Assembly (NCBI RefSeq): GCF_036017915.1 | Contig: NZ_CP107929.1 | Coordinates: 4,902,001 to 4,966,000 of the forward strand | DNA length: 64,000 bases | Source: Micromonospora sp. NBC_00421 | Lineage (GTDB): Bacteria > Actinomycetota > Actinomycetes > Mycobacteriales > Micromonosporaceae | Direction: 5' to 3' | Shown here: in pieces, positions 18,002 to 33,173 of the stretch | Numbering within the stretch: position 1 is the stretch's first letter | Layout of the letters: the number at the start of each line of letters is the position of its first letter | Translations under genes and position numbers: made by a program | Notes under the pieces: model-generated | Told to the model about the DNA's origin: nothing | What the model saw: only the letters and a program-made list of their open reading frames with translations | Database searches by the model: none

Positions 18002-19009
18002 ATGGCACTCGTCTGGTTCGCCCTGCTCGGCCTCTTCTTCGCCGGCTACCTCGTCCTCGGCGGCCTGGACTACGGGGTGGGCCTGCTGCTCGCCCGGCAC
18101 GACACCCCGGCCGCCCGCCGTGCCGGGCTCACCGCGCTCGGCCCGTTCTTCCTCGGCAACGAGGTCTGGCTGGTGGCCGCCGTCGGCATTCTCTTCGGCG
18201 CCTTCCCCACCCTGGAAGGGGAACTCCTCTCCGGCCACTACCCCGCCGTGGCCGGGGCGTTGGTCGGGGTGATCCTGGTCACCGCCGGGGTGCAGCTGCG
18301 CAGCCGCCCCACCGGACCGGCCGCCCGCCGGGGGTGGGACCGGGTGATCGTGGCCGGCAGCGCGCTGGCCGCGTTCGGCTGGGGCGCGCTGCTCGCCGGG
18401 CTGCTCCAGGGCCTGCCGATCCACACCGACGGTCGCGTCGCCGGGCAGACCCACCTGGCGACCCCGTTCGTCGCCGCCACCGGGCTCGCCCTGCTCACCC
18501 TGGTCGCGGCGCACGGTGCGACCTTCCTCACCCTGCGACTGCCGGCCGCCGACGCGCCGGCCACCGCCCGGCTGGCCCGCCGGTTGGTCGTCGGGGCACT
18601 CGCCGCGGTCGCCACCGCCACCGCGCTCGGCCTGCTCTCCGAGCGGGTACGCGCGGCGACCCGCCAGCCGCTGCCCGCCGTACTGCTTGTGGTGCTGCTG
18701 GTCGGGGCGCTGCTGGCGGCCCGTGCGGCGCTCGGTCGGGGTCGTCCCGGGGTGGCCCTGGCCGCCACCGGCGCGGCGCTCGCGCTACCGGTGGCCCTGG
18801 TCGGCGCGGCGCTCTGGCCGGCCGTGCTGGTCTCCACGGTCGACCCCGCGGCCACGGTGGACGTCGCCGACGCGGCGGCCAGCGGGCCGACGCTGCGGCT
18901 GCTGGGCTGGCTGACGCTGCCCCTGCTGCCGGCCCTACTAGGCTTCCAGGCAATGTGCTGGTGGGTGTTCCGGGGACGGACCGACGGCAGGGGACCGGTG
19001 TACTGGTGA
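18002..19009 (+). CDS. cydB: Cytochrome bd oxidase subunit II
   Basis: A 335-residue multispanning partner of CydA. The N-terminus FALLGLFFAGYLVLGGLDYGVGLLL and the segment GPFFLGNEVWLVAAVGILFGAFP are diagnostic of CydB, with GLLQGLPI and repeated hydrophobic helices to the C-terminal PALLGFQAMCWWVF. It carries no haem of its own but is required for assembly and quinol oxidation. The ATG lies 11 bases after cydA, and the stop overlaps the GTG of cydD (GTGA), giving translational coupling. Confidence 0.95.
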   Translation: MALVWFALLGLFFAGYLVLGGLDYGVGLLLARHDTPAARRAGLTALGPFFLGNEVWLVAAVGILFGAFPTLEGELLSGHYPAVAGALVGVILVTAGVQLRSRPTGPAARRGWDRVIVAGSALAAFGWGALLAGLLQGLPIHTDGRVAGQTHLATPFVAATGLALLTLVAAHGATFLTLRLPAADAPATARLARRLVVGALAAVATATALGLLSERVRAATRQPLPAVLLVVLLVGALLAARAALGRGRPGVALAATGAALALPVALVGAALWPAVLVSTVDPAATVDVADAAASGPTLRLLGWLTLPLLPALLGFQAMCWWVFRGRTDGRGPVYW

Positions 19010-20742
19010 ACCGCCGTCCCTTCGACCCGCGTCTGCTGCGCCGGGTTCCCGCGGCCCGGCGCGACCTCGCCGTGCTCGCCGCCCTCGGCGGACTCACCGC
19101 GCTGCTTGTCGTCGCGCAGGCCACCGCCCTGGCCACGGTGCTCGCCACCGCCATCCACGGCCGGCTGGACACCGTCGCGCTGGCCGGCTTCGTCACCGCC
19201 GTCGGTGCGCGGGCCGTGGTCTCCTGGGGGCAGGGCACCGTCGCCGCGCGGGCCGCCGCCACAGTGAAGGCGACGCTCCGCGCCGATCTGCTCGCCGCCG
19301 TCGGCCGGCACGGGCCCGGCTGGGTCGCCGGTCAGCGGGCCGGGCAGCTCGCCACCCTCACCGGGCGCGGCCTCGACGCGCTGGACGCCTACTTCACCGG
19401 CTACCTCCCCCAACTCGTGCTCAGCGTCACCGTGCCGGCCGCCGTGCTGGCCCGGCTGGTCTTCGCCGACTGGAGCTCGGCCCTGATCATCGTGCTCACC
19501 ATCCCGCTGATCCCGGTCTTCGGCGCGCTGCTCGGCTGGCAGGCCCAGGCCGCCACCGAACGGCAGTGGCGTCGGCTGTCGATGCTCGGCGGGCACTTCC
19601 TCGACATGGTCGCCGGGCTGCCCACCCTGCGCGCGTTCGGTCGGGCCCGGGCGCAGACCGAGGTGGTCCGCCGGATGGCCGACGGGCACCGGGTCGCCAC
19701 CATGAAGACCCTGCGGATCGCCTTCCTCTCCGCGCTGGTGCTGGAGCTGGTCGCCACCCTGTCGGTGGCGCTGGTCGCGGTGCCGGTCGGCATCCGGCTG
19801 CTGGACGGCGGGATCACCCTGGCCACCGCGCTGCTGGTGCTGCTGCTCACCCCGGAGGCGTACCTGCCGTTGCGGGCGGCCGGTAGCCGGTTCCACGCCA
19901 GCATGGAGGGGCTCACCGCGCTGGACGAGGCGCTGACCGTCTCCGCCGTACCCGCCGGTCCGGCCGCCGCCGCCGGTCCGGTGGCCGCTGGTCCGGTGGC
20001 CGCTGGTCCGATGGCCGCTCGTCCGGTGGCCGCGGTCCGTCCGGCACCGTCGGGGGGCGGCGAGATCCGGTTCTACGACGTCACCGTCGCATACGAGCGG
20101 ACCACCGCCCTGCGGGACGTCACGCTCACCGTCCGACCCGGCGAGCGGATCGCCGTCGTCGGGCCGAGCGGCGCCGGCAAGAGCACCCTGCTCGGCCTGC
20201 TGCTCGGCTTCGTCACCCCGACCGCCGGCCGGATCACCGTCGACGGGGTCGACCTGGCCGACGTCGACCTGGACGACTGGCGTCGGCGGATCGCCTGGGT
20301 GCCGCAGCGGGCCCACCTGTTCGCCGCCACGTTGGCCGACAACATCCGGCTCGGTGCCCCCGACACCCCGGACGCCGCCCTGGCCGACGCGGTCGCCGAC
20401 GCCGCGCTGGACGAGGTCGTGACGGCCCTGCCCGACGGGCTGGACACCCTGCTCGGCGAACGCGGCCACGGGCTGTCCAGCGGTCAACGGCAGCGCGTCG
20501 CGCTGGCCCGAGCGTTCCTCCGGGACGCCCCGCTGGTGCTGCTGGACGAGCCGACCGCCCGGCTGGACACGGCGAGCGAGACGACAGTCCTGGACGCCAC
20601 CCGGCGACTGGTGGCCGGCCGTACCGCCCTGCTGGTGGCGCACCGGCCGGCGCTGTTGGCGGACGCCGACCGGGTGCTGCACGTCGCCGCCGGCCGGGTG
20701 ACCGAACTGACCCCGAGCCCGGCCGGGGAGGCCAGTCGATGA
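19006..20742 (+). CDS. cydD: Thiol reductant ABC exporter subunit CydD
   Basis: A 578-residue ABC half-transporter: six membrane helices (to about 320), then an ATPase domain with Walker A GPSGAGKST (about 386), signature LSSGQRQRVALARAF (about 491) and Walker B LVLLDEPTA. CydDC exports glutathione/cysteine-type thiols needed for haem-bd oxidase assembly. The helix-nucleotide domain linker (about 323-345) is a tandem repeat of GPVAA units made by four 15-bp copies. GTG 19006 overlaps cydB by 4 bases, and the stop overlaps cydC (ATGA). Confidence 0.94.
   Translation: MNRRPFDPRLLRRVPAARRDLAVLAALGGLTALLVVAQATALATVLATAIHGRLDTVALAGFVTAVGARAVVSWGQGTVAARAAATVKATLRADLLAAVGRHGPGWVAGQRAGQLATLTGRGLDALDAYFTGYLPQLVLSVTVPAAVLARLVFADWSSALIIVLTIPLIPVFGALLGWQAQAATERQWRRLSMLGGHFLDMVAGLPTLRAFGRARAQTEVVRRMADGHRVATMKTLRIAFLSALVLELVATLSVALVAVPVGIRLLDGGITLATALLVLLLTPEAYLPLRAAGSRFHASMEGLTALDEALTVSAVPAGPAAAAGPVAAGPVAAGPMAARPVAAVRPAPSGGGEIRFYDVTVAYERTTALRDVTLTVRPGERIAVVGPSGAGKSTLLGLLLGFVTPTAGRITVDGVDLADVDLDDWRRRIAWVPQRAHLFAATLADNIRLGAPDTPDAALADAVADAALDEVVTALPDGLDTLLGERGHGLSSGQRQRVALARAFLRDAPLVLLDEPTARLDTASETTVLDATRRLVAGRTALLVAHRPALLADADRVLHVAAGRVTELTPSPAGEASR
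19975..20034 (+). repeat. Four 15-bp tandem copies in the CydD linker
   Basis: Units of GGTCCGGTGGCCGCT repeat four times with few changes, encoding (GPVAA)2-GPMAA-RPVAA between membrane and ATPase domains. In-frame copy-number change would alter linker length without breaking the frame. Confidence 0.75.
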
Positions 20743-22598
20743 CCACCGGTCCCGTTCCCGCCGTTCGACCCGAGCGGGTGGTGCTGCGGCTGGCCCGGCC
20801 GTACCTGGGTCGGCTGCTCGGGGCCGGGCTGCTCGCCTCGGCCACCGAGTTCGCCGGGCTGGCCCTGATGGCCACCGCCACCTGGCTGCTGATGAGCGCC
20901 GCCGGCCAGCCACCGCTGGACCGGCTCACCGTCGCCATCGTCGCCGTCCGGGCACTGGCCATCAGCCGGGGCGTGCTGCGTTACACCGAACGACTCGCCG
21001 GCCACGACGCCGTACTCCGCATGATCACCGACGTCCGGGCCAGAGTCTTCGCCACTCTCGCCACCCGACCCGGTTCCGCCGGCCACCGCACCGGGGACGC
21101 CCTGAGTCGGCTGGTCTCCGACGTGGAGGCGGTACAGGATCTGCTGCTCCGGGTCCTCGTACCCGGGGCGGCGGCTGCGCTGGTCGGGGTGCTGGCCGTC
21201 GGTGGGGCCGCCCTGGTCTCGCCGCCCTCGGCCGGGGTGCTCGCGGTCGGCCTCCTGGTCGCCGGGGTGGCGCTGCCGGTGCTGGCCACCGCACTGACCC
21301 GGCGGGCCGCCGACGAGGTGGCGCCGCTGCGCGGGGCGCTCGCCAGCGACGCCGTCGACCTCACCCACGGTGCCGCCGACCTGGCTGCCTTCGGGGCCAC
21401 CGACCAGGCGCTGCGGGCCGCGACGAGCCGCGCCGACCGGCTGGCCCGACTGGAGCGCCGGCTCGCCGCGACCGGATTCGCGGTGGACGCGGCGGGGGTG
21501 CTGGTGGCCGGGGCGACCGCCGCCGGGGTGGTGCTGACCGCACTGCGCTCCGGGGTGGACGGGGTACTGGTGGGCGTGCTCGCCGTCGGTGCCCTGGCCG
21601 CTGTGGAGATCGCGTTGGCGCTGGTCGGCGCGGCCCGACAGCGCACCCAGCTCCGCGCCGGCCTGGCCCGGGTCGCCAGCCTGCTCGACGGCCCGGCGGT
21701 GCCCGGTGCCGCGGTGTCCGACGGGCCGGTGTCCGACGGGCCGGTGCACGACGGGCCGGTGCACGACGGGCCGGTGCGTGATGGCCCGGTCGTCGGTGGG
21801 GCGGCGGGTGGCACGGTGGGGCGGCCGGGGGCGGCCGCGCACGACGTGCGGTTCGACGGGGTCGTCGTCCGGTACCGGGAAGGTGCCGCGCCCGCCCTGG
21901 ACGGGATCGGCCTCGACCTGCCCGCCGGCCGTCGGATCGCGATCGTCGGGCCGAGCGGCGCCGGCAAGAGCACGCTGGCCGCCGTGCTGACCGGAGCGGT
22001 ACGACCCGACGCCGGCCGGGTCACCCTGGCCGGCCGGGACGTGTCGACGTACCCGGCCGAGGAGCTGCCCCGGCAGATCGGCGGACTGCTCGCCGAGGCG
22101 TACGTCTTCCACGCCTCGGTGCGGGAGAACCTGCTGCTCGGCCGGCCGGACGCGGACGAGGCGGAACTGGCCGACGCGACCCGCACCGCCGGTCTGCTCG
22201 ACTGGGTACGCGCCCAGCCGGACGGTTGGGACACCCTGGTCGGTGAGGAGGGCGGTCAGCTCTCCGGTGGGCAGCGGCAGCGGCTCGCCCTGGCCCGGGC
22301 CCTGCTCGCCGCCCCCGGTGTGCTGGTGCTCGACGAACCGACCGAGGGCCTCGACCCGGTCGCCGCCGACGCGGTGCTCGCCGGGGTGCTGGCGGCCACC
22401 CCTGCCGGGCGCTCGGTGCTGCTGATCAGCCACCGGCTCAGTGGCCTGGCCGGTTTCGACGAGGTCGTGGTGCTGGTCGCCGGCCGGGTGGCCCAGCGCG
22501 GGCGGCACACCGACCTGGTCGCCGCCCCGGGCTGGTACCGGGACCAGTGGCTGCTGCAGGAGGCCGCCGAACGCGGATACCTGGCCCTGACGCCCTGA
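20739..22598 (+). CDS. cydC: Thiol reductant ABC exporter subunit CydC
   Basis: A 619-residue ABC half-transporter, partner of CydD. Membrane domain residues about 20-310 (LRYTERLAGHDAVLRMITDVRARVF is the CydC-type coupling region). The ATPase domain has Walker A GPSGAGKST (about 404), signature LSGGQRQRLALARALL and Walker B VLVLDEPTEGLD. The linker (about 325-352) is a five-fold repeat of (S/H)DGPV units. ATG overlaps the cydD stop by 4 bases. Last gene of the cyd operon; a GC stem lies just downstream. Confidence 0.94.
   Translation: MTTGPVPAVRPERVVLRLARPYLGRLLGAGLLASATEFAGLALMATATWLLMSAAGQPPLDRLTVAIVAVRALAISRGVLRYTERLAGHDAVLRMITDVRARVFATLATRPGSAGHRTGDALSRLVSDVEAVQDLLLRVLVPGAAAALVGVLAVGGAALVSPPSAGVLAVGLLVAGVALPVLATALTRRAADEVAPLRGALASDAVDLTHGAADLAAFGATDQALRAATSRADRLARLERRLAATGFAVDAAGVLVAGATAAGVVLTALRSGVDGVLVGVLAVGALAAVEIALALVGAARQRTQLRAGLARVASLLDGPAVPGAAVSDGPVSDGPVHDGPVHDGPVRDGPVVGGAAGGTVGRPGAAAHDVRFDGVVVRYREGAAPALDGIGLDLPAGRRIAIVGPSGAGKSTLAAVLTGAVRPDAGRVTLAGRDVSTYPAEELPRQIGGLLAEAYVFHASVRENLLLGRPDADEAELADATRTAGLLDWVRAQPDGWDTLVGEEGGQLSGGQRQRLALARALLAAPGVLVLDEPTEGLDPVAADAVLAGVLAATPAGRSVLLISHRLSGLAGFDEVVVLVAGRVAQRGRHTDLVAAPGWYRDQWLLQEAAERGYLALTP
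21714..21788 (+). repeat. Five 15-bp tandem copies in the CydC linker
   Basis: Five units related to GTGTCCGACGGGCCG encode VSDGP-VSDGP-VHDGP-VHDGP-VRDGP at the same structural position as the CydD repeat, but the unit sequence is different. Both halves of the transporter have therefore independently expanded their interdomain linkers. Confidence 0.75.
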
Positions 22599-24051: not shown

Positions 24052-24118
24052 ATGTGCCCAGAGTCACTTGGCGGCGGCACGTCGCCGAGTGGGCAACCCG
24101 ACGCACACGGAGGTCAGC

Positions 24119-25087
24119 GTGGCCCGCCAGTCGCCCCAACGGCCCGACGCCGACGAACCCGAGCTCGGCGACACCGACGGGCCGACCGGGCCCGACGTGG
24201 AGCCCGGCCCGGCCGACCGCTCGCTCTGGGAAGAGCTGAGCATCGATCCGGTCGAGATCGCCCTGCCCGCCGGCACCGGTTTCACGCTTCGGGCGTACCG
24301 GGCGGCGCGCGAGCTGACCCCGACGGACGTCGCCGAACGCGACGAGGACGACCCCTTCCTGGCCCGACGTCAGGTCGTCGAGGCCGAGGACGACGAGGAG
24401 GTGGTGATCCTCGACGAGGAGTTCGCCGCCCTGTCGGCCGAGGACGAGGCTGAGGCCGAGGACGACCGGAAGGACGCGGGCGACGGCAAGCGTGCAGGCG
24501 GGAAGGACGGCACCGACACCGACGATGCCGACACCGACGACGACGCGGATGCGGATGCGGATGCGGACGCCGACGGCGACGCCGACGGCGACGGCGACGA
24601 GGAGGAGGTGCCGGTCTTCCTGAGCCACAAGGGCCGGCTGCTGCTGTTCAAGACGCCCGAGTCGCTCGTCAGTTTCATCCGGTCGGGTGCCCCCAACGAC
24701 CTGTCCCAGCTGGACGGTTGGAATGAATTGTCCGAACGGGTCACACCGGCCGACATCGCTCCGCGCGACGAGGACACCTACGAGCTCGACCTGGTCGTGG
24801 AGAACCTGCGCGGCGGGCACGACACGTGGGACCCGACCCTCCTGATCGAGGCTGGCGAGGTGGCCCGTGACCTGTCGTACGCGCTGCGGCTACCAGCCGT
24901 GCTGGACATGCTCTCGGCCGGCTCCAGCCTGGACGACCTCGACGAGGCGCTGCGTGCATCTGTCAACGGCGGAGTCGGTGGTTTTCTCGGCCGTAGGCGG
25001 TTGAAGAAGATCGGGGCCCAGACCGCAAGCTTGGGTTGGCGCACCATTGTCGGCAAGATCTCTGCCGTCGTGGACTGGCGCGACTGA
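24119..25087 (+). CDS. Asp-rich hypothetical protein
   Basis: A 322-residue soluble acidic protein of unknown function. The N-terminal third is disordered, and about residues 97-163 are almost pure Asp/Glu/Ala (DADADADADADGDADG), coded by a GACGCGGATGCG-type microrepeat. The C-terminal half looks folded: VFLSHKGRLLLFKTPESLVSF, YELDLVVENLRGG and DLSYALRLPAVLDMLS, ending in a basic segment (FLGRRRLKKIG). GTG 24119 was chosen for a perfect GGAGG 5 bases upstream; ATG 24068 is open in frame but has no such site. It precedes the IS110-like conservon-associated gene by 65 bases on the same strand. Confidence 0.82.
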   Translation: MARQSPQRPDADEPELGDTDGPTGPDVEPGPADRSLWEELSIDPVEIALPAGTGFTLRAYRAARELTPTDVAERDEDDPFLARRQVVEAEDDEEVVILDEEFAALSAEDEAEAEDDRKDAGDGKRAGGKDGTDTDDADTDDDADADADADADGDADGDGDEEEVPVFLSHKGRLLLFKTPESLVSFIRSGAPNDLSQLDGWNELSERVTPADIAPRDEDTYELDLVVENLRGGHDTWDPTLLIEAGEVARDLSYALRLPAVLDMLSAGSSLDDLDEALRASVNGGVGGFLGRRRLKKIGAQTASLGWRTIVGKISAVVDWRD

Positions 25088-25152: not shown

Positions 25153-27777
25153 GTGGCGCTCGTGCGCGTGTACTGCGGTCTGGCTTCGGCAGATCCGGCC
25201 GACCGACCGGCCTCGGCCGGATCGACGCTGACGTCCGCCGTGGTCGACGACGCAGGCCGTCTGCTGCATGTCTACGAGATCGGTGACGACGCGGCGGGTT
25301 ATGCCCAGCTGGTCTCGCTGCTCGTGGAGCGGTCGGGCGGGCCGAGTGGTGTGGCGATCGCCGCCGACAGCGACGACCACGCGGTCACCTCGCTGCTGAG
25401 CGCAGCCGGCCGTCCACTGGCGATCGCCGACGACGACTCGGTCGACGACTTCGCCGAGCGGTTCGCCGACGACGACTCCCTGGAGGAGATGCAGTCCGCG
25501 CCGGCCGAACGGCGGGCGGTGGGTCTGGCCCGTGCCCTCCAGGCCGGCGCACTCTCCGCGGTCACCCTGCCGGCTTCCCGGGACCTGGCCGGCTTCAAGC
25601 AGGTCCTCGCGGCACACGCCGCCCTGTCCAGTGGTCGGCACTCCGCCGCCGTGGCACTGCGTGAGGTGCTCCGCGAGCTCTACCCGGCCGCCCTGCGGGC
25701 ATACCCGGATCCGGCCGAGCCGGTGGCCTTGGCCGTCCTCGACGCGCTACCCGAGCCGAACATGCTCGGCGGCACGTCGGCGCGGGGCCGTGACCTGTCG
25801 GTGGCCGCCGAGGCGGTCATCGCGCACCTCACCGCCGACGGGGTCGCCGAGGCCGGGGAGATCGAGGCGGCGGTCACCGCGCTGCGGGTGGCCATCTCCG
25901 AGACTCCGCGCCGGGCCACCGTCAACCGGGCGCTCACCTCCGCCGTCGCCGAGACCGTCCGACAGTCGGTCGCCGCGGTACGCGCCTGCGACGCCGGCTG
26001 CGAGGCGCTGGTGAGTGCACTCAGCACCCGGGTCAGCGCTCCGAGCCCGATGCCGGGCCGTCGGGCTGCCGCCCGCCGGGGCGAGCAGGTCGGCGAGCTG
26101 ACCGGCATCAGCGGCACCGGCACCGGCCTACGTCCGGTTCGGTCCGCCGAGCCGGCGCCGCCGGTCCCGACCGGTCGTCGTAGCCGCCCCGAGCCGGTCC
26201 CCGGTGGGGCGACCCCGGCCGCACCCCGACCGCTCGGCCCGCCGCCGGTGGCCCCCGCCCCGATCACCCCGCCGCCGGTGGCCCCCCAGCCGGTGACCCC
26301 GGCTGCCGTGTCCACCCTGCCGAGCTCGGTGCCGCCGGCGCGTACCGATCCGAGGACGCCGGTCCGGCACGGGTCGGACGCCCCGACGACGATGATCCCA
26401 CCGATCCGGCGCGGGGTGGACGCCCCGACCAACCGGCCGGTCTCGGCCCCGCCACCGCCTCCTCCGGGCATCACCCCGATCGCCCCGGCGCAACGCGGCA
26501 ACGTGCCGCCCGCCGAGGCCGGTGAGCCGTTCCGGCCGACGCTGACCACCGCCGCGATCAACAACGCCCGTGCCGAGCGGCAGCGCACCGTGATCCCGCC
26601 GCGACCGAAGACCACGGGTGCGCTCTCGACGCCCACCGGTGGATTCAGCGCGACCGATCTCAACGTCCCGGTGCCAGTTTCCCGCCCCGAGCCGGAGCCC
26701 GTCGCCCCGCCGGGATCGCGGGCGAACTGGCCGCTGGTCAACAACCCCGAGGACCCAGCCAACAGTTCGGCCAACAACCCGGTGGTCCCGGCCTACGGTG
26801 AGCGGGCCGGTCGAGCGACTGACGCTCCCGCCGACCCGGGTGCCGGGCGTCGGGTCACCCCGCCATGGCTCGCCGACGACCTGCCCCAGGAGCCGCCGAT
26901 GCTGCGGTTGGTGGAGCCGCCGCCGCTTGCCGATCGGGCGTTGCGGGGCGCGCTGGACGCCGCAGTCGATCCGCACCTGGACACCCCGCCGCTGCGGTTG
27001 GTGGACCGGGAGGAAGCCGGCCGTCCCGGCCGATCCACCCGGGCCGACCGTCCGGAACGCCTCGACCGTCCGGAACGCCTCGACCGTCCGGAACATCTGG
27101 ACCGCCCCGCCCGGGCCGACCGTCCCGCGCGCCTCGACCGTCCCGAACGGGCCGAGCGCTCCGAGCGGGCCAGCCGACTCGACCGTCCCGATCGGCTCGA
27201 TCGGGACGAAAGGCCGGAGCTCCTCGACCGTCCCGAACGGGTCGAGCGGTCGACCCGTAGCGAGCGGGCGGGCCTTGACCGTCGGCCGGAACCGGTCGAG
27301 CGCCGTCCCCCGCCGATGGAGCACCGGCCGCCGCCGGTTTCCGACGAGGGCGACGGTGACCTGCTGATCTTCGCGCAGGCCAAGTCGGCGTGGTTCGTCG
27401 GGCACGGCGACGAGAGCGACCTGCAATGGTCGTCCACCGCGGACACCGGTTGGCAGGCCGCCGAGAAGGTCGCCCAGCCTGCCGTCGGTGCGGAGACCTC
27501 GGCCGGGCTACCCAAGCGGGTCCCCAAGGCCAACCTGGTCCCCGGTTCGCCGCTGCGCGAGGAGCGTCCGCTGCGGATCGTCCGGGACGCCGCGAGCCTC
27601 GCCGAGAACACCACCGGCTACTTCCGTGGTTGGCGTCGTGGGCAGGAGATCGGTGGTTTCGCGGTCGGTGGCCGGCCGGGGCGTGAAGCGGCCGGTGGCT
27701 GGGACTTCAGCCGGGATCCGACCGAACGGGAAGACGACCGGGAGTACGAGTTCCGCTCTGCCGGCTACCGGTCCTGA
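25153..27777 (+). CDS. IS110-transposase-like N-domain fused to a conservon-kinase-type C-terminal tail
   Basis: An 874-residue protein. Residues about 1-100 (AVVDDAGRLLHVYEIGDDAAGY, GVAIAADSDDHAVTSLLSAAGRPLA) follow the order of an IS110 DEDD transposase, and 150-270 (ALREVLRELYPAALRAYPDP) match its coiled-coil domain. The first catalytic Asp (GIDxx) reads VYCGLA and the VAIE Glu reads VAIAA, so it should be inactive. A Pro/Arg-rich disordered linker (about 300-730) contains repeated DRPE(R/H)L units. The tail (about 739-850) has IFAQAKSAWF, ADTGWQAA, GLPKRVPKANLVPG and YFRGWRRG, the same four blocks in the same order as the sensor kinase tail at 29463-33125. GTG 25153 has GGGAGGAGG 8 bases upstream; GTG 25129 is the alternative. 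Confidence 0.85.
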   Translation: MALVRVYCGLASADPADRPASAGSTLTSAVVDDAGRLLHVYEIGDDAAGYAQLVSLLVERSGGPSGVAIAADSDDHAVTSLLSAAGRPLAIADDDSVDDFAERFADDDSLEEMQSAPAERRAVGLARALQAGALSAVTLPASRDLAGFKQVLAAHAALSSGRHSAAVALREVLRELYPAALRAYPDPAEPVALAVLDALPEPNMLGGTSARGRDLSVAAEAVIAHLTADGVAEAGEIEAAVTALRVAISETPRRATVNRALTSAVAETVRQSVAAVRACDAGCEALVSALSTRVSAPSPMPGRRAAARRGEQVGELTGISGTGTGLRPVRSAEPAPPVPTGRRSRPEPVPGGATPAAPRPLGPPPVAPAPITPPPVAPQPVTPAAVSTLPSSVPPARTDPRTPVRHGSDAPTTMIPPIRRGVDAPTNRPVSAPPPPPPGITPIAPAQRGNVPPAEAGEPFRPTLTTAAINNARAERQRTVIPPRPKTTGALSTPTGGFSATDLNVPVPVSRPEPEPVAPPGSRANWPLVNNPEDPANSSANNPVVPAYGERAGRATDAPADPGAGRRVTPPWLADDLPQEPPMLRLVEPPPLADRALRGALDAAVDPHLDTPPLRLVDREEAGRPGRSTRADRPERLDRPERLDRPEHLDRPARADRPARLDRPERAERSERASRLDRPDRLDRDERPELLDRPERVERSTRSERAGLDRRPEPVERRPPPMEHRPPPVSDEGDGDLLIFAQAKSAWFVGHGDESDLQWSSTADTGWQAAEKVAQPAVGAETSAGLPKRVPKANLVPGSPLREERPLRIVRDAASLAENTTGYFRGWRRGQEIGGFAVGGRPGREAAGGWDFSRDPTEREDDREYEFRSAGYRS

Positions 27778-27992: not shown

Positions 27993-28607
27993 TCAGGCCG
28001 GGGCGACCGCGCGCGAACGACGCATGGTCAGCACGTACTCGACCAGCGAGATCAGCACATGCTTGGTCGACTCCCGGTTACGGGCGTCACAGGCGACCAC
28101 CGGTACGTCGGTCGAGATCGCCAGCGCGTCCCGGACGTCCTGCGGGTCGTGGTACTGCATCCCGTCGAAGCAGTTGATGGCCACCAGGTACGGCAGCCGC
28201 CGGTGCTCGAAGAAGTCGATCGCCGCGAAGCAGTCGGCCAACCGGCGGGTGTCGACCAGGACCACGGCGCCGATGGCACCCCGGACCAGCTCGTCCCACA
28301 TGAACCAGAACCGTGTCTGACCGGGCGTACCGAACAGGTACAGGATCAGATCCCGATCGATCGAGATACGGCCGAAGTCCATCGCCACCGTGGTCGTCGT
28401 CTTGCCCGGCACCTGCCGGGTGTCGTCGACGCCCACGCCGGCGGAGGTCATGATGGCCTCGGTGGTCAGCGGTGTGATCTCCGAGACCGAGCCGACCAGC
28501 GTCGTCTTGCCGACGCCGAACCCACCGGCGATAACGATCTTCGCCGACGTCACGCGCCCGTTCGGGGCAGGCGGCCGCTGCGACATGTCAGAGCCTGCGA
28601 AGTCCAC
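27993..28607 (-). CDS. cvnD: Conservon GTPase (CvnD type)
   Basis: A 204-residue small Ras/MglA-like ATP/GTP-binding protein. Nucleotide motifs: P-loop GGFGVGKTTLVG, switch II FGTPGQTRFWFMWDE (DxxG replaced by GTPG), base-recognition NCFD in place of NKxD, and CDARN as G5. All these variants are normal in conservon GTPases. It is the last gene of the four-gene conservon, expected to cycle with the roadblock and DUF742 proteins downstream of the sensor kinase. GTG 28607 is chosen because GGAGAGG lies 7 bases upstream; it overlaps the DUF742 3' end by 20 bases. ATG 28586 is an alternative. Confidence 0.92.
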   Translation of the reverse strand: MDFAGSDMSQRPPAPNGRVTSAKIVIAGGFGVGKTTLVGSVSEITPLTTEAIMTSAGVGVDDTRQVPGKTTTTVAMDFGRISIDRDLILYLFGTPGQTRFWFMWDELVRGAIGAVVLVDTRRLADCFAAIDFFEHRRLPYLVAINCFDGMQYHDPQDVRDALAISTDVPVVACDARNRESTKHVLISLVEYVLTMRRSRAVAPA

Positions 28608-28965
28608 TCAGCACCCTCTCCAGCAGTTCAGTGCCCACCGCGTCGTCCGAGTCGTCCAAGATGGTCGGCTCGTGGACCGCGACCAGGCCGTCCGTCGCCA
28701 TGTCGGCGATGAGCACCCGGGCCACACCGAGCGGTAGCTGCATCCGGGCCGCGATCTCGGCCAGCGACTGCACTCGTCCGTCACACAGCGCGGCGATGTA
28801 CTGGTGCTCCCGGCCCTGACCGCCGTTGCCACCGGCAGCAGCGCGACCGCGCACCGTCGTCTCGACGAGCGCCTCCAGGGCGATGTCGAGCCGGGGACGG
28901 GTACGACCGCGGGTCACGGCGTACGGACGGACCAACGCCCCTGTCGGTTCGTCACGATCGATCAT
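28588..28965 (-). CDS. cvnC: DUF742 protein (CvnC type)
   Basis: A 125-residue winged-helix-like DUF742 protein, third member of a conservon. Characteristic segments: GALVRPYAVTRGRTRPRLDIALEALVETT, EHQYIAALCDGRVQSLAEIAARMQLPLGVARVLIADMATDGLVAVH and the terminal LLERVLSGLRRL. It probably links the roadblock/kinase module to the GTPase. ATG 28965 is preceded by GGAGG about 11 bases upstream; a GTG at 28977 in frame is also possible. Its 3' end overlaps the GTPase start. Confidence 0.91.
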   Translation of the reverse strand: MIDRDEPTGALVRPYAVTRGRTRPRLDIALEALVETTVRGRAAAGGNGGQGREHQYIAALCDGRVQSLAEIAARMQLPLGVARVLIADMATDGLVAVHEPTILDDSDDAVGTELLERVLSGLRRL

Positions 28966-29061
28966 GTAGCCGCTCACCTCCCTCGCACCCGGCACCGGCT
29001 CTCACCCGGTGGAACCCGTCGTTGTTGTCCTCGTCCCGTACCGACCAGCTGGCCAGCCCGG

Positions 29062-29466
29062 TCAGCCCATCATCCCGACAGCCGTACGGGCCTGCGGGGT
29101 GAGCGCGTCACCCACCCGGTCCACGAGCAACGCCATCTCGTAGCCGACCTGACCCACGTCACAGCTGCGGGCGGCCAGTACGGCGAACGACGACCCGTCC
29201 GAGATGGACATCAGGAACAGGAAGCCGTTGTCCATCTCGACGACGGTCTGCAGCACCGCACCGCCCTCGAAGCAGCGGGCCGCGCCCTGGGTCAGGCTGA
29301 CCAGGCCGGACGCGATCGCCGCCAACTGGTCGGCCCGATCCCGGGGCAGGTCGCGCGACGAAGCGAGGAGCAGGCCGTCGGCGGAAACGGCTACCGCGTG
29401 TGCGACACCCGGCACCCGGTCGGCGAAGTTGGCCAACAGCCAACCAAGATCCTGCGTACTTGTCAT
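29062..29466 (-). CDS. cvnB: Roadblock/LC7 domain protein (CvnB type)
   Basis: A 134-residue roadblock/dynein-light-chain protein, which dimerises and serves as a partner or activator of MglA-like GTPases. Family segments: [74 protein letters not shown] and [13 protein letters not shown]. The ATG overlaps the sensor-kinase TGA (ATGA), giving coupled translation. About 96 bases separate its stop from the DUF742 gene. Confidence 0.94.
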
Positions 29467-32400
29467 CCTTCTTGCTCCTTCTGCCCGCTCCTACCCGCCC
29501 GGCCGGAGCCGGACGGCGAGGATTGCTGCCCGCCCGGAGTGGCGTCCGGGTTGGCGGGGTTGTCCGAGGTGGTCCGGCCACGTTGCACACCTCGATGGTA
29601 GGCCGACAACAGACCCCGGACCGCCTCCGGCGTACGCCGCTGCACCGACGTGGTCGGCTTCTCGATCGCCCCCGGCACGAGCTGGGCCATCGGCGTCCGC
29701 TTCGGCAGGCCGGTCTGGGTCGTCCCGGCCACCGGTGCCTCGGTCGCGGCCACCGCGGCCCGCCAACCGTCGTCGGCGGCGGTCTGCCAGCTGGCGGGCT
29801 GCGGGGTGGGGCGACGGGTCACCGGGCTGTCGCCCCGACCGGGCAGATCCCCGTTCACTGTCGGCCCGTTGTCACGCGGCACGCCACCGGCCGGCGCGGT
29901 CTCTGCCATCGGTGCGCTACCTGTCGTCCCTGGTGCGGGGTACTGGAGGGCATGACCAGCGGTGTCGACGGTGGACTGCGCGGTCACGGTGCCGTTGGCC
30001 ACCGGCTGCCTGGCAACGGTGGCCTCGTCCGGGCCCGGCTTGCGGGTGCGGAACCAGGCCGACTCGAGCTCCCGGAAGATCGGCAGCTCCATCGTCTCGT
30101 CCGCGTACCGCTGCTGGGGTGCCTGTTGCGGGACCGGAGGTCGCTGGCCCGCCGACGACGCGTGCCCGGCCCGCACCGGCGGTGGTGTGGGCTGTCGAGG
30201 TGCCGGCGCTGCCGTCTCGTTACGCGGCACCCGGGGCAGCTCGGTGGTCATGTCCAGGGCGGCGGCGAGCCGCTCGGGGACCGGCGGGGTGGCCGTGTCC
30301 CGCTCGGGATTGGCCACCGGCGGCCAGGCCGGCGGTGCGGCGGCACCCGGCGCGGCCCCGCCCGAGGTGGGCCGGGACGGCAGCGGAGCGCTGGGCGACC
30401 CGGAGACCGGAGCGGCCGGGCCCGGCTGACCGGCATACGGGGACGCCGACACCGGGTAGCCCGGGGCGGGCTGACCCGACACCGGGTAACCGGAGCCCGG
30501 GTAGCCGGAGACCGGCTGACCCGAGACGGGCTGACCGGAGACCGGTCGGCTGGACAACGGGTAGCCGGAGACCGGCTGACCGGAGACCGGAGCGGCCGGG
30601 TACGAGGGCGGCAGCGGTGGTGCCGACACCGGCGGGACCGGCGGGGAGCTGTACGGCCGGGCCTCCGGGCTGCTCGGCAGCTGACGCGGGATGGTCGGCT
30701 GCTGACCGGTGCTGTCCGGGTCGTCACTGCTCCGCCGCTGGGGCAGCGGGTCGATCGCCTGACCGTTCGTGGTCCGCGGGGTGAAGCCGTCCGCGCCGTT
30801 GACCCCGCCGGCACCGGTGAGGTCCGACCAGGCGGGCATCCCGCGGCCACCGTTGACGGGAGCACCGGAGCCGTTGCGCGGCGCCGGCTCCAGGGGTCGG
30901 CCCCCGAAGGTGACCTGGTTTCCGGACTCACCCTGGCGGGGGGCCGGCGGCTGGCCGTTACCGATCGCGGGAAGTGCACCGAAGGCTTGGGAGGCGCTCG
31001 ATCCACCGAAGGCAGGGGCCGAGCCGGCACCACCGAAGGCGGGGGTCGAGCCGGGGCCACCGAAGGCCGGGGCCGAGCCGGTACCACCGAATTGCGGGCC
31101 GGCGCCAGGCAGGCCGGGGGTGCCCGGGGCCCGGCCGGTGAGGGCGCGGGGGACCAGCACCGAGGTGGGCAGGACGACCTCGGCCACGGTGCCCCGGTCG
31201 GTGCCCGGACGCAGCTCGACCTTGACGCCGTGCCGGGACGCCAACCGGGCGACCACGACCAGGCCCATCATCCGGGAGACCGCCACGTCCACCTGGGGTG
31301 GGGTGGCCAGCCGCTCGTTGAGGTCGGCCAGTTGCTCGGGGCTGATGCCGATGCCCCGGTCCTCGACGTAGAGCGAAGCACGCTCGCCGATCCGGCGGGC
31401 CTCGACCATCACCTGGGAGTCCGGCGGGGAGAACGCGGTCGCGTTGTCGAACAGCTCGGCGACCAGGTGGACCATGTCGTTGACCGCGTGCGCGGAGACC
31501 TCGATGTCCCGGTCGATGATCCCGAACTCGATCCGGGTGTAGTGCTCGACCTCGGACTGCGCGGCGCGCAGCACATCGATCAGGGCGGCCGGCTCACGCT
31601 GCACCCGGGTGGAGTCTGCACCGGCGAGGACCAGCAGGTTCTCGTCGTTACGGCGCATCCGGGTGGCCAGGTGGTCGAGCTGGAACAGCTCGGCCAGCCG
31701 GTCCGGATCCTCCTCGCCGCGCTCCAGCCGGTCGAGGTGGCCGATCAGCCGGTCGACCAGGATCTGCGACCGGCGGGCGAGGTTGACGAACATCGTCGCG
31801 ACCGAGGAGCGGAGCGCGGCCTGCTCGGCGGCGGTACGGACGGCTTCCAGGTGGACGGCGTTGAACGCCTCGGTCACCTGGCCGAACTCGTCCCTGCTGC
31901 GGACCGGCAGCGGCTCGGCGATCTGGTTGGCCAACTGCGCCGGGGACTGTTGGCCGGTGAACTGCGGGTCACGCAGCCGGGCCACCGCCTGCGGCAGGCC
32001 GAACTGGGCGATGGACAGGGCACCCTGGCGCAGGTCACGCAGGGACCGGGCCATCGACCGGGCGACCAGGTAGGCGAAGAGGATCGCCAACAGCAGCATG
32101 CTGAGCAGCAGGCCGGTCTCCAGGAAGACCTGACGCTGGACGTCGGAGCGCAGCTCGTCGGCCTTGGCGACGACGTCGCCGTCGAGGCGCACCTCCACGG
32201 CCCGGTTGAGCTGGGCGTACGCGACCATGGCCGCGTCCCACTGGTCGGTGGTGAAGGTGAGGCCGTCCAACCTGTCGCTGTTCAGCGCGCTGACCTGGCC
32301 GGCGTAGATGTCGGCCTGACGGCGGTCGGAGCCCGAGACGCTCTGGTCCTGGAACTCGCGTTCGGCGCGGGTGGCCACCGCCTGGAAACTCTGCAGGGCC

Positions 32401-33125
32401 TGCTGCTCACCGGTGTTGCTGGAGATGTACAGCTCACGCAGGGCCGGGGTGTACGCCTTCTGGAGCAGCACCTGGTGCACCGCGATCCGGCGGACCGAGG
32501 CGTACTCCTTGGCGCGGGCCATCGCGGCGGCGGCCCGCATCTGGTCGCTGAGGTCGTTGTCACCGGCGAGCTGGGTGGCCGAGTCACGGATGGTGATCAG
32601 GTTGTTGATCAGACCGGTGTACCGGCTGACCGCCTCGCTGAGTCGGAGCTTGCCGTTGTAGACCTGACTCCGGACGCCGGGCATCTCCGTCAGGTCGGTG
32701 TCGATCCGGTCGAGCTGCGTCTCCAGGGTCGCCGGCAGGCCCTCGATCTCGGCGCGCTGCTGCGAGTAGGGCACCTTGGACTGGTCGACCCGCTGGTTGA
32801 CCCGGTTGTAGGCCTCCTGGTACTGCGCGCGGGACTGCCCCTTGGGCGAGCCGAGCAGCAGGACGGCGTTGGTGCGCTCGTCCTGGAGGGTGTTGACGAG
32901 GTCACCCGAGTAACCCACCAGGTTGGCCAGGTCACCGGCCCGGTTGGCGTTGTTGAGCGTCTGCAGGTGGTCCACCAGCCCGCTGGTGCCCACGACGACC
33001 GTGGCGATGGTCGGCACGATCATGATCAGGCCGAGCTTGGACCAGATCGGCATGTCGCGGAGCCGGCCGGCCGGCCGACGCAGACGCGACAGGAAGGAGC
33101 CCGCCGTCGTTGGCCGTTTGCTCAC
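29463..33125 (-). CDS. cvnA: Nitrate/nitrite-sensing-domain sensor histidine kinase (CvnA type)
   Basis: A 1,220-residue membrane sensor. TM1 (about 30-50, [16 protein letters not shown]), an extracytoplasmic NIT domain (about 55-310, with [10 protein letters not shown]), TM2 (about 320-342) and a HAMP-like region come first. The HATPase domain has N-box [12 protein letters not shown] (about 562), G1 DRGIGIS (about 588) and G2 [13 protein letters not shown]. The usual phospho-acceptor box is atypical ([20 protein letters not shown]), as in conservon kinases. The C-terminal half is disordered, with AFGG and VSGxP repeats, then a conserved tail: [44 protein letters not shown] 33125 has GAGGG 7 bases upstream. 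Confidence 0.92.
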
Positions 33126-33154
33126 GTCACCGCCCTCGCGATTACAGCGCCTCC

Positions 33155-33173
33155 GCGTTGCCACGGGCAACGC
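33155..33173 (-). promoter_or_regulatory. Hairpin in the leader of the sensor-kinase gene
   Basis: GCGTTGCC-ACG-GGCAACGC forms a perfect 8-bp stem ending 30 bases before the kinase start. It lies in the divergent region between the kinase and the uridine-kinase-like gene, and could be an operator or a 5' leader structure. Confidence 0.4.

Follow-up and report, generated by a model that had tools for sequence, protein, structure and literature searches.

A probable ex-transposase joined to the C-terminal tail of a conservon kinase in Micromonospora and its relatives

Within a stretch of 64,000 nucleotides from Micromonospora sp. NBC_00421 (contig NZ_CP107929.1, positions 4,902,001 to 4,966,000; hereafter the window) we characterized a gene that joins an N-terminal part of the type found in IS110 transposases (IS, insertion sequence) to the C-terminal tail of CvnA, the sensor kinase of conservons, which are actinobacterial G protein systems. 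From the sequence evidence, we somewhat favour the reading in which this chimera is an exapted IS110 transposase turned into a kinase-less CvnA surrogate, whose dead transposase part would dimerise and whose tail would dock a roadblock GTPase-activating protein (GAP). The initial annotation had proposed recruitment of a dead transposase fold to signalling, and this is supported by the homologies, the loss of the catalytic residue Asp11, the fixation of the gene in its family and the linkage of the tail to roadblock genes, while docking is something we infer. The parts of the gene are as follows.

25153..27777, + strand: chimeric gene, 874 amino acids; very probably dead IS110 RuvC domain and coiled coil, proline-rich linker, CvnA-type tail.
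25153..25572, + strand: RuvC/RNase H-like domain, residues 1-140, with Ala11 in place of the first catalytic Asp.
25576..26052, + strand: helical part, residues 142-300, with homology to the coiled coil of IS110 and stopping short of the Tnp (Transposase_20) domain.
26053..27336, + strand: linker, residues 301-728, long, proline-rich and poorly conserved.
27337..27774, + strand: CvnA-type C-terminal tail, residues 729-874, with the motifs LLIF..A.SAWF, W..(A)D.GWRAA, T.AGLPKRVPQANLVPGS and GYFRGW.RG.

The open reading frame (ORF) lies where it had been placed, running from GTG 25153 through 874 codons to a stop at 27775-27777. The sequence GGGAGGAGG precedes this GTG, its end 8 nt away; the start codon is nevertheless uncertain, because the deposited relatives start at an upstream GTG equivalent to 25129.

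The IS110-type character of the N-terminal part was confirmed by profile, tblastn, profile-profile and fold comparison. The match of the window protein to the IS110 profile PF01548 is itself sub-threshold, at E 0.017 with the full-length sequence and 0.00092 with residues 1-306 alone, and an E value of 0.01 or better is reached by 9 of the 54 aligned members of the chimera family, the best being 2.3e-7. Comparison against plasmids by tblastn gave 61 records; among the 20 of these that were listed, 14 are annotated as IS110 and one as IS117-type, three lie in unannotated records and two have no feature under the match, with a best E value of 3e-7 (an unannotated record) and of 1e-6 for an annotated IS110. 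Profile-profile comparison with IS110 gave 99.4% across residues 5-232, and the best solved-structure matches of an AlphaFold model (predicted local distance difference test score of 88) are IS621 and ISCro4, to which the RuvC domain alone fits well in Foldseek, as the fold check proposed at the outset had anticipated; a direct sequence search of the PDB with the N-domain returned nothing useful. By sequence and by fold, then, the protein carries a RuvC/RNase H-like domain. The homology had been placed in the first 270 residues or so; its N-terminal position stands, and its end moves to about residue 300 by alignment and global hhalign.

In IS621 the catalytic residues are D11, E60, D102 and D105, together with Ser241 in the Tnp domain, in the accessible text of PMC11208158. 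Aligned with the IS110 motifs CGIDWAE ... VAIET ... KSDPGD, the window protein has Ala for Asp11, and Ala and Glu for the third and fourth acids, so that the intact DEDD motif of an IS110-family transposase is absent. The loss of the first Asp, predicted from the window protein, extends to all homologues, which have Ala, Thr, Val or Ser in 54/54; this count leaves out a 55th row, L109, which is a true IS110 without the tail and keeps the Asp. The predicted replacement of the Glu of VAIET stands in the window protein, where the position is Asp or Ala depending on the alignment, and has to be qualified for the 54 homologues, 46 of which have Asp, two Glu and six another residue. The third and fourth positions are unconserved among them, the alignment being gapped there. 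The Tnp domain is missing, as had been claimed: no PF02371 match was found in the 874 residues, whereas an IS117-type protein matches it at E 5e-15, and the alignment with IS110 proteins stops before SFPGLG. Judged on these residues, the N-domain is very probably catalytically dead. IS110 proteins bind bridge RNA and DNA, and the dead RuvC domain and coiled coil might still bind nucleic acid, which would make the chimera a nucleic-acid sensor or a nucleoid tether for the G-protein system; we consider this quite unlikely, given that the Tnp-equivalent part with its nucleophilic Ser is missing and that the N-domain is mostly acidic. Its net charge is −16 in the window, and 55 members have a median of −14 and span −19 to 0, while six IS110s lie between −1 and +4.

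At the other end of the protein, the claimed resemblance to the neighbouring conservon kinase was reproduced, with 39% identity over 74 residues (E 1e-8) and an alignment score of 122, the highest of 2000 shuffles being 76. The motif L.IF....SAWF, read by eye, is common to the chimera and CvnA and lies upstream of the aligned tail, and CvnA tails of other families match the chimera's tail at up to 66-70% over about 40 residues. The genome of the window has the tail at three places, namely the adjacent CvnA, a CvnA-like gene at 6645251 that is followed by cvnB-cvnC-cvnD, and the chimera. Searching 59 genomes of the class with the CvnA tail (E≤1e-4) gave 24 places in 15 genomes; apart from the chimera, cvnB follows directly behind the tail in 22/23 of them and kinase sequence precedes it in 22/23. 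On this sequence evidence the chimera's tail is the one in which the CvnA kinases of conservons end. The kinase itself is missing, since a Pfam scan of the chimera found neither the histidine kinase ATPase domain (HATPase) nor HAMP, and no NIT, cytochrome P450 or GAF domain. As described initially, a long proline-rich linker (residues 301-728) joins the N-domain to the tail. At about 27025-27260 of the window the linker contains a local expansion of R/D/P-rich repeats (LDRPERLDRPE...) that is near-absent from the aligned relatives (occupancy 0.03-0.09).

The chimera is a fixed gene of one family, the Micromonosporaceae. Many Micromonospora have close homologues, at 87-98% identity across the first 320 residues. 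More distant relatives were found in Actinoplanes, Dactylosporangium, Planosporangium, Krasilnikovia, Glycomyces, Natronoglycomyces and Salininema; the Glycomyces proteins are mostly annotated as 'hypothetical protein'. Matches are present in 10/11 genomes of the genus sample, the window genome included, and in 100/101 genomes and 41/42 genera of the family sample; of the 100 matching genomes there, 94 have a single match. All twelve of the weakest family matches (E 1.6e-6 to 2e-14) carry the tail in frame. Among 246 genomes sampled from the class, 14 had matches: the window genome, two more from its genus, and 11 further genomes scoring E 3e-15 or weaker. The 7 of these 11 that were examined were rejected as homologues of the chimera, being all true IS110 proteins (PF01548 E 8e-31 or better, five also with PF02371) that lack the tail; within this scope the chimera was not recognised outside the family. 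Up to 9 candidates per genome were scored in the class sample and up to 22 in the family sample. Two genomes carry second, diverged copies of the chimera (L106 10094-11524, and L108), with no matched SatS-like gene or conservon adjoining.

Proteins matching the chimera at E≤0.001 number 855, and most of the named ones among the best 120 are called 'transposase', as are most named Micromonospora relatives. That the gene is nonetheless an ordinary IS110 transposase or a decaying IS copy is practically inconceivable in view of the family-wide fixed locus with one match in most genomes, the loss of Asp11 throughout, the missing Tnp domain, the fused tail and purifying selection. Synteny across the family rules out an ordinary IS element, and a mobile one is rejected by a locus that is fixed beside a SatS-like gene and, in 45/57 loci, a conservon. 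The ratio of nonsynonymous to synonymous substitution rates (dN/dS) in four pairs was 0.13-0.28 for the N-domain, 0.24-0.57 for the linker and 0.11-0.17 for the tail, which had the lowest value in 4/4 pairs; purifying selection thus acts on the N-domain and the tail, and less on the linker.

The genes around the chimera that bear on its role are the following.

24068..25087, + strand: SatS-like gene, start codon uncertain; directly upstream in 56/59 loci.
27993..28607, − strand: cvnD, small GTPase (Pfam).
28588..28995, − strand: cvnC, DUF742 (Pfam).
29062..29466, − strand: cvnB, roadblock/LC7 protein (Pfam); proposed docking partner of both tails.
29463..33170, − strand: cvnA of the convergent conservon, a NIT-HAMP-HATPase kinase (Pfam), start codon uncertain.
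29574..30086, − strand: C-terminal tail of CvnA, with the motifs common to the chimera (alignment).

We collected 60 loci, with the tail in frame in 54. Setting aside L109 and the second copies L106 and L108 left 57 loci, in 54 of which the downstream DNA is readable, with the tail in frame in 53 of these; L106 still contributes to the figures on residues, charge and trees. L074, L083 and L101 were dropped at contig ends and L009 as a cut locus, and L091, whose open frame ends at 384 residues with the tail in another frame, is in the locus counts and out of the alignment. Conserved synteny and consistent loss of the DEDD acids had been named as support for the initial proposal; a conservon lies beside the chimera in 45/57 loci, and Asp11 is lost in 54/54 homologues. 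In 21/54 loci, from 11 genera, the chimera is followed directly and on the same strand by a dedicated roadblock gene, whose product is 37-45% identical to CvnB (Robl_LC7 at E 6.5e-17 in the one scanned) and whose start overlaps the chimera stop codon in 10 of the 21, the start codons being script-chosen. No dedicated roadblock gene follows the chimera in the remaining 33 loci, which come from 27 genera, that of the window among them, and a roadblock profile at E≤1 found no residual one in the gap up to cvnD. In each of these 33 a cvnA, cvnB, cvnC and cvnD run convergent to the chimera, with cvnB 1.1-3.2 kb from the chimera stop in 32 (L091 left out). Nine loci have no conservon in the 4.3-6.1 kb downstream, and all nine have the dedicated roadblock. 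With a dedicated roadblock in 21 and a convergent conservon in 33, a roadblock gene therefore lies near the chimera in 54/54 readable loci; in the window only the convergent conservon supplies one.

When a dedicated roadblock was used as query against 118 genomes of the class, the strongest matches, which reached E≤1e-12 in 57 genomes, were roadblocks of CvnB type. For every one of the 15 genomes that had matched the tail, the best match was the CvnB beside a tail-bearing gene (14 read by eye); in the fifteenth genome the tail beside this CvnB, overlooked at the cut-off of the earlier tail search, is present at E 1e-9. The window genome has no orthologue of the dedicated roadblock, its best match being the CvnB of the adjacent conservon (39%). 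This pattern of best matches fits a history in which roadblock and tail descended together from a conservon that had been duplicated.

The low dN/dS of the tail indicates that it is not a relic, and it bears on the proposal that tail and roadblock are both leftovers, with a chimera that works mainly with the SatS-like protein, for instance in protein export, and a conservon link that is historical. The SatS-like gene is about as constant as the tail, and SatS is described in PMC6333443, as far as its accessible text goes, as an export chaperone in mycobacteria; here the match to NCBIfam NF050072, the family of the mycobacterial SecA2 chaperone SatS, is far below the cut-off. With the tail as the best conserved part, and the dedicated roadblock starting within the chimera stop in 10 loci, we hold this to be very unlikely. 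The SatS-like gene and the chimera are likely in one transcription unit, and the SatS-like protein is a possible functional partner of the chimera.

Several observations weigh against our favoured reading of a CvnA surrogate that docks a roadblock GAP. The docking is a proposal, and the adjacency of tail and roadblock genes could reflect nothing more than the gene order of an inherited operon. The pattern of linkage is nested in the phylogeny, the presence or absence of the dedicated roadblock amounting to two changes on a quick N-domain tree with long branches, so that the 54 loci are not 54 independent cases; with only two changes, an ancestral roadblock that disappeared along the line leading to the core genera is the best reading. 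Likewise, the roadblock tree, which places the 21 dedicated roadblocks in a single clade (100/100) apart from the CvnBs, has 140 columns, long branches and an unsettled bootstrap. Compared as a whole with IS110 chains in Foldseek, the two-domain model fits poorly, with a template modelling score of about 0.33 at a root-mean-square deviation of about 20 Å. The Asp (46/54) or Glu (2/54) kept at the second of the catalytic positions could point to some remaining capacity to bind metal. Furthermore, in the 27 genera that lost the dedicated roadblock the tail is still conserved, and it may bind something else. One such reading takes the tail as a membrane or kinase contact motif by which the chimera binds CvnA or another common partner (CvnC, CvnD) and modulates the kinase, as the accessory CvnF8 binds CvnA and stimulates CvnA8 in the account available from PMC13343842. 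According to that text the CvnE and CvnF accessories go overwhelmingly with CvnAs that have no NIT domain, whereas the neighbouring CvnA here has one, and the nine loci without a conservon nearby have nevertheless kept their own roadblock; we regard this reading as unlikely.

In the favoured reading a truncated IS110 gene (RuvC domain and coiled coil, no Tnp) would have been fused, in the ancestor of the family, to the linker and tail of a conservon kinase that had been duplicated, the fusion being placed next to the roadblock gene of that conservon; that the fusion arose when an IS110 inserted into the kinase gene is a guess. The catalytic centre would then have decayed and the N-domain turned acidic. 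The coiled coil, which dimerises in IS621 (PMC11208158, accessible text), would dimerise the chimera in the cytosol, the dead RuvC domain would bind some partner or ligand, and the flexible linker would present the tail for docking to the roadblock GAP. If the tail is the kinase's dock for the roadblock, the chimera would offer the same dock on a dimeric, cytosolic and kinase-free platform, the partner being the dedicated roadblock in early lineages and, in Micromonospora and related genera, the CvnB that the convergent conservon encodes. MfpD, the mycobacterial homologue of CvnB, is a GAP, and CvnC is probably the guanine nucleotide exchange factor of the GTPase (PMC13343842, in the text available). 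The outcome could be a cytosolic input added to the control of the CvnD G protein, or competition with CvnA for CvnD. We tentatively extend this to a kinase-less conservon, in which a dead RNA-guided transposase with a dimerising coiled coil replaces the whole sensor kinase and the kinase tail commands the roadblock GAP; early lineages would have it as a separate branch (SatS-like protein, ex-transposase, roadblock), which in Micromonospora would have merged into the adjacent conservon after its own roadblock was lost.

Like the IS110-family recombinases IS621, ISCro4 and IS117, the chimera has a RuvC-like domain and a coiled coil, with sequence homology over about 300 residues; unlike them it has lost the first DEDD Asp, does not keep the third and fourth acids, has no Ser-bearing Tnp domain, is mostly acidic, is fused to a linker and a CvnA tail and is not mobile. 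Piv, a DNA invertase related to IS110, is used outside transposition as a working recombinase, an activity not expected of the chimera. With CvnA kinases the chimera shares the tail motifs after a low-complexity linker and, in the 21 loci, the roadblock gene behind, but an ex-transposase without NIT, HAMP or HATPase stands in the kinase's place. CvnE (P450) and CvnF (GAF) are likewise non-core proteins encoded beside a conservon and, in the available part of PMC13343842, thought to act at its input; the chimera differs in having neither GAF nor P450, in being convergent to the conservon, whereas cvnE and cvnF lie downstream of cvnD in the operon, in having its own roadblock in early lineages and in a neighbouring CvnA that keeps its NIT sensor. 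Functional analogy, not drawn from sequence comparison, is offered by Nop5 and Nop56/58 of box C/D small nucleolar ribonucleoproteins, in which an inactive RuvC-like domain and a coiled coil form a protein platform; in the accessible text of PMC12045711 the inactive RuvC of Nop5 recruits fibrillarin, which shows a RuvC-like fold to be capable of acting as a platform. The chimera has no Nop RNA-binding end and belongs to a bacterial signalling context.

Literature searches turned up no publication that deals with this protein or with any fusion of conservon and transposase parts, subscription papers being mostly outside the literature searched. Conservons and domesticated transposases are already known, and within that literature, as far as its texts were accessible, their combination, a dead transposase replacing a sensor kinase, is not described. 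The family is known for its antibiotic producers, and our data suggest that in Micromonospora and its relatives an ex-transposase is now part of a bacterial Ras-like signalling system. As an example of a bacterial transposase taken over for signalling the gene is well resolved; nearly all members of a family have it, and the database name 'transposase' conceals it. How the kinase acts on the roadblock/GTPase pair in conservons is largely unexplored according to the accessible text of PMC13343842. A second, unrelated protein that has only the C-terminal tail of the kinase, near roadblock genes, isolates the tail as the probable connector, and the kinase-to-roadblock question thus becomes directly testable with short peptides.

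The chimera and cvnD are about 0.2 kb apart in the window. Some genera have a gap of 1.4-2 kb, with a homologous ORF of about 430 residues in 9 of 13 loci compared. The sole one scanned (L104 5562-6857) is like periplasmic-binding proteins and ANF receptors (PF13458, E 8e-34), and its product could work with the NIT-type CvnA as a sensory partner; the window has no such gene. A sigma-70 scan at the chimera gene gave no promoter-like site, and one terminator-like site lies within the gene, about the chance expectation. A few kb upstream, genes at 18002-22598 of the window look like parts of a cytochrome bd system, which we take to be cydB followed by ABC (ATP-binding cassette) transporters of cydD/cydC type, and several relatives also have sequence upstream of the SatS-like gene that is presumably cydC-like.
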